Shown: positions 5,992-13,407 of the stretch, one piece after another
How the letters are laid out: each line of letters starts with the position of its first letter
Numbering within the stretch: the first letter of the stretch is position 1
Notes under the pieces: generated by a model
Database searches by the model: none
Told to the model about the DNA's origin: nothing
Seen by the model: the letters and a program-made list of their open reading frames with translations, nothing else
Translations under genes and position numbers: made by a program
Source: an uncultured Chloroflexaceae bacterium
GTDB lineage: Bacteria; Chloroflexota; Chloroflexia; Chloroflexales; Chloroflexaceae
Length of the DNA: 14,994 bases
Direction of reading: 5' to 3'
Assembly: GCA_937141995.1 (NCBI GenBank)
Contig: CAKZQX010000455.1
Span: 1 to 14,994 of the forward strand

Positions 5992-6101
5992 AAGCAAATC
6001 CCTCTACGCGCCTATGTCCTGAATTTTCATGAATACACCGGCACTGTGCGATAGATAAATCATACCACACTCTTTGGTTTCAGTGTTCACCTCTATCTTA
6101 A

Positions 6102-6294
6102 CAGGACTTACGCGGTCGGTTCCAAACCAGGCGTCTGCCTGGAAAAATGGCCCGATTCGCCTGCGGCAGCGTGGTACTTTTTTATTCTTTTTCACAAAAA
6201 TGTTGCTCTCAGAGCAACATTTTTGTGAAAAAGATCCAGAATCTTCCGCCCTGCCGGAGGCGAAACCAGTTTCCCAAGGAGTGACCGCGTAACT
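6102..6294. mobile_element. Palindromic MITE-like element, copy A, with 12-bp flanking duplication
   Basis: A 193-bp element with ends CAGGACTTACGCGGT and ACCGCGTAACT, whose inner 9 bp (TTACGCGGT/ACCGCGTAA) are inverted repeats. Further in, TTCGCCTGCGGCAG pairs at 13/14 with CTGCCGGAGGCGAA. The centre is a hairpin with two perfect 23-base arms (6187-6209 and 6211-6233) around a single C. The element is flanked on both sides by CCTCTATCTTAA (6090-6101 and 6295-6306), a perfect 12-bp direct repeat that looks like a target-site duplication. No coding sequence is inside. It is non-autonomous, and the mobilising enzyme is not in this window. Confidence 0.8.
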
Positions 6295-6370
6295 CCTCTA
6301 TCTTAAGAGAACAAAGCTGCGACTTCTCTGGTTCTCTGTTCTCTGGCTAGCTGTTCGTTCTCCATGAACA

Positions 6371-12098: not shown

Positions 12099-12101
12099 TG
12101 G

Positions 12102-12489
12102 CACAAGTTACGCGGTCAGTGTTCAAACTGGCTGTTTGACCAGATGAAAGCAGTTGTCGCCTGCGGCAGCATGATACTTTTTTTTCTTATTCACACAACA
12201 TGTGCATGAGATGCACATGTTGTGTGAATAACACGAGTTACGCGGTTGACATGCCAACCGGACGTTGACCCGATGGAAGCCGGCTTCGCCTGCGGCAGCA
12301 TGGTACTTCTTTTTCACAAAACATTTTGCACGTTGTGCAAAATGTTTTGTGAAAAAGATCTAAAATCTTCCGCCCTGCCGGAGGCGAACATGCCTTTTGC
12401 GTGACCCACCGCGTAACTTCTGTGAAAAAGAATGGAGTCTTCCATCCTGCGAAGGCGGCATCTGCTGTCGGGTCAATGACCAGGTAACG
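12102..12489. mobile_element. Palindromic element copy B, split by a nested copy
   Basis: The left part (12102-12231) begins CACAAGTTACGCGGT, continues through GCCTGCGGCAGC and ends with a hairpin of two perfect 21-base arms (12187-12207 and 12211-12231) around GAG. After the nested copy C (12232-12417), a decayed right part (about 12430-12489) follows, with TCTTCC, CTGCGAAGGCGGC and ACCAGGTAAC. These correspond to the right arm of the family (TCTTCC, CTGCCGGAGGCGAA, ACCGCGTAAC). Both outer flanks contain TGTCA, but this is too short to prove a target duplication. The element abuts the MarR promoter. The 12490-12554 stretch up to the acetyltransferase stop shows nothing recognisable. Confidence 0.65.
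12232..12417. mobile_element. Palindromic MITE-like element, copy C, nested in copy B
   Basis: A complete copy of about 186 bp. The left end is CACGAGTTACGCGGT and the right end ACCGCGTAAC(T), with perfect AGTTACGCGGT/ACCGCGTAACT inverted repeats. Inner arms are CTTCGCCTGCGGCAG and CTGCCGGAGGCGAA. The centre is a hairpin with perfect 23-base arms (12309-12331 and 12335-12357) and a GTT loop. The flanks TTGTGTGAATAA (12220-12231) and TTCTGTGAAAAA (12418-12429) match at 10 of 12, consistent with a 12-bp target duplication made when it inserted into the hairpin arm of copy B. Confidence 0.75.
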
Positions 12490-12554
12490 CGTGTCATAGT
12501 GACGGAGGATGTATTGATATAGTGTGCGGCGGCCATGCTCCCGCATACCAGAGA

Positions 12555-13323: not shown

Positions 13324-13407
13324 TGGTGGGGATGGTGGGATTTGAACCCACACGCCTTGCGGCACATGCTCCTAAGGCATGCGCGTCTGCCATTTCGCCA
13401 CATCCCC
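13324..13407 (-). tRNA. tRNA-Leu(UAG), CCA encoded
   Basis: The acceptor stem GGGGATG (13407-13401) pairs perfectly with CATCCCC (13334-13328). The D arm starts GGCGAAATGGCAGACGC. The anticodon loop is CTTAGGA with anticodon TAG (13374-13372), which reads CUN leucine codons. A long class II variable arm (GCCGCAAGGC) and the T arm GTGGG-TTCAAAT-CCCAC are present. The discriminator base is A and the terminal CCA (13326-13324) is encoded in the DNA. Confidence 0.96.

Follow-up and report, generated by a model that had tools for sequence, protein, structure and literature searches.

Results

Three hairpins in copies of a miniature transposable element

The window, by which we mean the whole 14,994-nucleotide stretch analysed here, is one contig (C455) of a draft genome of 5.42 Mb in 1122 contigs that is 86% (85.95%) complete; judging by the relatives of its Lon protein, the host would belong to the Chloroflexales. 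An earlier note had described three tips in the window, A, B and C, as pairing perfectly with themselves over 21–23 bases in spite of unlike inner sequences. DNA folding bore this out: each tip folds into a stem free of mismatches, closed by a 3-nt loop (z scores of −8.2 to −9.7, equalled by 0 of 200 shuffles). A repeat search of the window returned arms of B and of C that were 100% complementary and placed A within a palindrome whose 54-nt arms are 81% complementary. The tips did not qualify as intrinsic terminators, since neither copy A nor copy C has a T run, searched for by eye, behind its stem. The features are listed in Table 1.

Table 1. Coordinates of the element copies and tip hairpins in the window
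Feature	Position	Strand	Description
Miniature transposable element, copy A (199 bp)	6101..6299	+	Ends ACAGGACTTACGCGGT / ACCGCGTAACTCCTCT; ATCTTA flanking each side
Left target duplication of A, ATCTTA (6 bp)	6095..6100	.	Flush direct repeat of 6300–6305
Right target duplication of A, ATCTTA (6 bp)	6300..6305	.	Flush direct repeat of 6095–6100
Tip hairpin of A	6187..6233	+	Arms 6187–6208 and 6212–6233 (22 bp); loop TCA 6209–6211; DNA fold −22.7 kcal/mol, z −9.65
Left half of element copy B, with nearly whole tip	12101..12230	+	Start approximate, set by eye against the end consensus
Tip hairpin of B	12187..12231	+	Arms 12187–12207 and 12211–12231 (21 bp); loop GAG 12208–12210; DNA fold −22.5 kcal/mol, z −8.19
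Element copy C	12231..12423	+	Ends ACACGAGTTACGCGGT / ACCGCGTAACTTCTGT; empty-site check; flanks GAATA / GAAAA, 4 of 5 bases alike
Conserved arm block to the left of the tip in C, with left side of the 13-pair mid-stem	12285..12308	+	Identical to the left-arm pattern used genome-wide
Tip hairpin of C	12309..12357	+	Arms 12309–12331 and 12335–12357 (23 bp); loop GTT 12332–12334; DNA fold −24.0 kcal/mol, z −8.89
Conserved arm block to the right of the tip in C, with right side of this mid-stem	12368..12388	+	TTCCGCCCTGCCGGAGGCGAA
Element copy B, right half, pushed aside by C	12424..12494	+	End approximate, set by eye

Each tip forms the central hairpin of a miniature inverted-repeat transposable element (MITE) present in high copy number. 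Its left arm block matched the genome 496 times (265 + 231) at up to 3 mismatches, and a reversed control pattern 0 times. Among the 25 genomes searched, a genome of the same genus (G001) gave 34 + 39 matches and three others 1 or 2. Element length peaked at ~ 198 bp, with longer classes at ~ 220 and ~ 270 bp. The termini carry ACASGASTTACGCGGT, inverted, at either end, and flush direct repeats of 5–7 bp (56, 26 and 3 cases) surrounded 85 of 191 candidate end pairs, compared with ~ 2 for shuffled partners; the target consensus is roughly nAnTn. Terminal inverted repeats together with target duplications identify the family as a miniature transposable element.

Once copy C was removed, the left half of B and the stretch beyond C aligned end to end with other copies (for example, query positions 8–215 with C717). 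Copy C is therefore nested in copy B, and its insertion point is the outer edge of B's tip, whose final base (12231) is also the first base of C. The earlier note had taken B for a separate copy; its tip stands as described, whereas its anatomy has to be revised, B being the left half of an element interrupted by C.

Several contigs of this genome (e.g., C33, C363 and C428) start or stop within element copies. The repeat probably breaks the assembly, which would make the copy number a lower bound. The outer arms consist of a few swappable modules, and left and right outer distances are weakly correlated (r = 0.14), so that the elements look mosaic. A second palindromic repeat, GTTGGAACGTT / CCAACGTTCC, lies in the window at 1389–1408 and 1699–1738, and resembling letters were seen within or beside the G001 elements L215, L232 and L234. 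Several G001 elements (e.g., L222, L229 and L247) have yet another repeat, CCCCATTCGGCTTCGCTCAGAGC... AGTCGAAGGGG or close to it, in their right arm. A tRNA gene is located at 13327–13407 on the minus strand of the window (Rfam RF00005).

A 5–6 bp target duplication is also characteristic of the IS1634 family, as a passage of PMC2266710 has it. The genome contains seven PF01609 loci, two of them with element-like ends, and in none is the gene bracketed by such ends; PF13701 gave 0 matches. Thus, a mobilising partner transposase was not found among the PF01609 and PF13701 loci of the 86% complete assembly. A search for a Y1 transposase yielded 0 PF01797 matches in the same assembly, with the control ringing in 5 of 14, and on this count we rejected an identification of the elements as REPINs. 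Viral contigs queried with one exact 19-mer gave 0 matches. Among 35 related loci around lon, a MarR match was present upstream of lon in 24 and the GNAT gene, which lies on the other side of B and C, in 0, several of the loci being short there. Our literature searches turned up no account of this family of elements.

Tips pair within copies and differ between copies

The final set comprised 204 copies with arm blocks 45–75 nt apart, of which 184 had a loop of 3 nt with arms of at least 20 positions and 176 had full flanks. Copies were anchored on the arm blocks and not on the tip, with some loci originally fetched through palindrome or tip patterns. Of the 272 left-arm matches in the first set, we excluded 54 that lacked a right arm, in some cases because of contig ends.

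Arms differed at 2.4% of positions within a copy and at 35.4% between copies (184 copies). The left arm of one copy also differed from the right arm of another by 35.4%, so a shared consensus is not the cause of the pairing. There were 140 distinct left arms in the 184 copies, a single 20-nt arm being common to as many as 10 copies. Pairing was perfect over 20 pairs in 134 of the 184 (137/202 in the wider count), and about one-third of the copies had at least one mismatch. A subset chosen by a left-arm rule irrespective of the tip (72 of the first 184) behaved likewise, with 53/72 perfect and a between-copy difference of 36%. The earlier note had proposed to test for near-complete identity within copies and low identity between them, and had named two observations that would speak against its view: a mere two or three tip types shared by all copies, and arms as mismatched as outer sequence. 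Neither describes the family, given the number of distinct arms and a mismatch frequency of 0.46 per 20 pairs in the tip against 1.52 per 13 pairs in a neighbouring stem.

The stem ends abruptly. Counted from the loop (first set, 184 copies), pairing was 94–98% at positions 1–20, 80% at position 22, 52% at position 23 and 12% at position 26, and position 1 was a C in 165/184 copies.

The sister species G001 repeated the same pattern with tip sequences unlike those of the window genome. A tip hairpin was present in 26 of 52 arm matches; these were picked by hairpin score and are thus biased towards pairing, and one of them (L234) may be another repeat. Of these tips, 17/26 were perfect over 18 pairs (mean, 0.96 mismatches); they had 24 distinct arms and differed by 46% between copies. 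The three-base loops (n = 13) included TTC and GAA three times each and TAC and GTA twice each.

Substitutions and length changes occur mostly in both arms together

To distinguish compensatory from single changes, as the earlier note had suggested, we scored departures from the consensus in the tip and in a 13-pair mid-stem that lies further out and served as an internal control. The tip had 816 paired, 80 one-sided and 9 both-sided but unpaired departures (184 copies). The corresponding numbers for the mid-stem were 7, 304 and 7 (204 copies), and the Fisher odds ratio for paired versus one-sided departures, tip against mid-stem, was 443. The tip has therefore preserved its pairing, unlike the neighbouring mid-stem. 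The span between the anchors TTCAC and GTGAA was odd in 126 and even in 8 cases (n = 134; lengths, 33–51). With a 3-nt loop, an odd span means that length changes occurred mostly in both arms together.

Independent contrasts between copies at a flank distance below 0.12 contained 168 paired, 24 single and 9 both-sides-unpaired differences. At distances below 0.06 (n = 11) there were 24 paired, 4 single and 1 both-unpaired differences, some of the paired ones resulting from a shifted register, and at distances below 0.03 (n = 6) 1 paired and 1 single. Contrasts rich in paired differences (e.g., C810 versus C668) likewise reflect in part a register shift from a paired indel. A one-sided tip change was retained in the contrast of C925 with C131. 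Paired differences in 20 close contrasts were spread along the stem (21 adjacent versus 19.5 expected), which lends no support to block-wise replacement of tips in close contrasts. Beyond a flank distance of ~ 0.1, tip and flank similarity were nearly unrelated, which may reflect rapid saturation of change or an additional exchange of entire tips.

The loop inverts

The frequencies of loop triplets were correlated with those of their reverse complements (r = 0.85), more so than with those of their reverses (0.38) or complements (0.30), and there was no bias of orientation (χ2 = 11.1, 12 df, p = 0.52). In 40 independent contrasts below 0.12 flank distance, 9 loops were inverted, 7 the same and 24 other. 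Exact inversion in 9/40, where ~ 2 are expected, has p = 1 × 10−4 (3 × 10−5 among the 33 changed loops). At distances below 0.03, 11 non-independent pairs comprised 4 same, 6 inverted and 1 other (chance, ~ 5, 4 and 91%), and 6 independent contrasts comprised 3, 2 and 1, respectively. The clearest inversion is that of C1120 versus C547, C844 and C970, which have identical stems, inverted loops, 3/135 flank differences and different host sites. In the same comparison, C617 had one further paired A:T/C:G difference.

Tip mismatches increase at most weakly with copy age

As a measure of age we used private changes, that is, arm-block flank changes absent from the 12 nearest copies. Copies with 0, 1, 2 and 3–4 private changes (n = 67, 65, 32 and 11) had 0.48, 0.40, 0.44 and 0.82 tip mismatches per 20 pairs, and the one copy with at least 5 had 0. 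Free decay would give 0, 0.89, 1.78 and 2.91, respectively. The overall ratio of observed to free-decay mismatches was 0.53 (95%, 0.36–0.74), and copies with at least one private change were well below decay. The measure is crude: copies without private changes already had 0.48 mismatches, and the same expectation was too low for the mid-stem (1.52 observed versus 0.56 expected per 13 pairs), which indicates that private changes miss part of the history. Distance to the consensus, a cruder measure of age, gave a weak rise of mismatches (Spearman 0.16, p = 0.03), with 2/8 perfect tips in the oldest bin. Tip mismatches thus increase with copy age at most weakly. Their persistence and weak rise suggest that correction is incomplete or weaker in old copies.

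The spectrum of paired changes differs from that of the flanks

The spectrum was determined on the first copy set with ungapped flanks. Paired tip changes in contrasts up to 0.15 (n = 236) consisted of 140 A:T–C:G (59%), 47 transitions (20%), 36 A:T–T:A and 13 C:G–G:C changes. Contrasts with at most 3 paired changes gave 19 A:T–C:G, 4 A:T–T:A, 3 transitions and 2 C:G–G:C. Unlike flank changes, the prevalent A:T–C:G paired changes preserve the amino or keto class. Transitions made up 46–57% of the flank changes (392/860 in these contrasts) and 45/83 (54%) of the unpaired tip departures, or 19/41 within contrasts. The paired changes, with 20% versus 46–57% transitions, hence do not follow the supply of single-arm mutations, an expectation that is our own and not a published defining feature.

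Discussion

We propose that the arms of the tips are kept complementary by quasipalindrome correction through replication template switching, a reading to which we assign a probability of roughly three in four. Once present, a stem of ~ 22 bp with a 3-nt loop would constitute a quasipalindrome. When replication stalls at the tip, the growing strand could change its template, either to the second arm or to the opposite strand of the hairpin, copy it and switch back. A mutation in one arm would thereby be erased or copied to the second arm, and the arms would stay complementary while drifting far from those of other copies. A switch onto the opposite strand would leave the loop inverted. We infer that the agent is template switching in the resident copy rather than the processing of a cruciform or a transposition step.

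According to a passage in PMC8604942, template switching at an inverted repeat with a short spacer homogenises the arms, and an intermolecular switch inverts the spacer. Quasipalindromes of E. coli are described in a section of PMC7202029 as mutational hotspots via template switching, and part of PMC8794818 reports that, in RNA genes, template switching creates and may maintain stems, loop inversions being rare. Homogenised arms, paired changes and an inverted short spacer are the features that our data share with the process as presented in these sections (PMC8604942, PMC7202029, PMC8794818). What differs is that we see a standing pattern across many copies of one bacterial mobile element, and that A:T–C:G changes dominate among the paired ones.

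The observations fit template switching apart from the spectrum. Ordinary mutations that were simply templated would keep their spectrum, so the A:T–C:G excess counts against it; published bacterial data are said, second-hand and in a passage of PMC8604942, to favour transversions in template switching. The tip might instead be diversified by a process of its own, confined to the hairpin, that writes A:T–C:G changes into both arms and flips the loop about half the time. We regard this as unlikely. If true, it would mean that a mobile element harbours a hairpin-confined mutational process, perhaps tied to its movement or replication.

The main rival to template switching is selection on the DNA hairpin: a transposase, a host protein or replication would need a perfect ~ 22 bp stem, such that unpaired copies are lost and compensated ones survive. 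The abrupt end of the stem and the prevalent C at its first position agree with this, and REPIN hairpins, too, often have compensatory changes, which a passage of PMC3116915 reads as a need for hairpin capacity. Selection of this kind does not, however, predict paired length changes or exact loop inversion about as frequent as identity in close copies; the at most weak rise of mismatches with age also speaks against it, as does the interrupted copy B, still perfect over 21 bp, although a single copy is little proof. The rival is weakened, and we hold it to be improbable. Selection on a hairpin in RNA transcribed from the element could invoke the strong covariation, the customary sign of structured RNA. 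Selection on one strand should favour G·T over A·C mismatches, and their near equality (30 versus 29 in 179 copies, with 5 copies having more than 5 mismatches excluded, and assuming one sense strand) argues against it. Paired changes are moreover mostly transversions, loops invert freely, and the only Rfam match at gathering score is to the tRNA elsewhere in the window. This explanation is extremely improbable.

Two further explanations were weighed. The earlier note had considered that the tip is regenerated as a fold-back at each copying event, one arm being templated by the other; in the form weighed here, this would happen only during transposition, and the tip would decay in place afterwards. 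Loop orientations that are mixed already in the closest copies would agree with such rebuilding. It predicts, however, a growth of mismatches with private flank changes, where we observed a nearly flat course, and the 5–7 bp target duplications indicate ordinary cut-and-join insertion. With mismatches in about one-third of the copies that rise at most weakly with age, regeneration solely at each copying event is disfavoured, and we consider it very unlikely. Alternatively, gene conversion between copies could move preformed tips around as cassettes, in either orientation. The near absence of a relation between tip and flank similarity beyond ~ 0.1, the weakly correlated outer arms and the arm common to up to 10 copies are in line with this; the 140 distinct arms among 184 copies and the scatter of paired differences along the stem are not, and conversion leaves the match of the arms within a new tip unaccounted for. 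We think cassette spread quite unlikely.

Templated correction of arm by arm is well supported by the inverted loops, by substitutions and length changes that come in pairs, and by the contrast with a neighbouring repeat that has next to no paired changes; of the readings offered in the earlier note this one stands. The new replication mode that the note raised as a possibility is not needed: known template switching predicts both homogenised arms and an inverted spacer, and nothing in the data demands such a mode.

The elements resemble the RAYT-associated REPINs, which a section of PMC3116915 portrays as high-copy extragenic hairpin units with an inner part that is variable yet self-complementary. 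They differ in having 5–7 bp target duplications and 16-nt terminal repeats, and a Y1 transposase was not found in the 86% complete genome. With bacterial MITEs mobilised by DDE transposases they have in common a size of ~ 200 bp, terminal inverted repeats and target duplications. They are distinguished from these by a long internal palindrome with a correcting tip, the partner transposase not having been found among PF01609 and PF13701 loci of the assembly. Loop inversion between paired stems is also seen in the minute inversions of chloroplast DNA hairpins, which occur at single loci and not in a mobile family.

The process proposed here is already known; the elements provide an unusually large natural sample of it, and their value lies in scale and built-in controls. 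Compensatory changes in hairpins are usually taken as proof of selection on structure. With hundreds of copies, a control stem, a second species and the orientation of the loop as a marker, mutation and selection become directly testable against each other, also for REPINs and palindromic repeats of other kinds. The family further cautions that covariation among bacterial repeats is no sure sign of a functional RNA.
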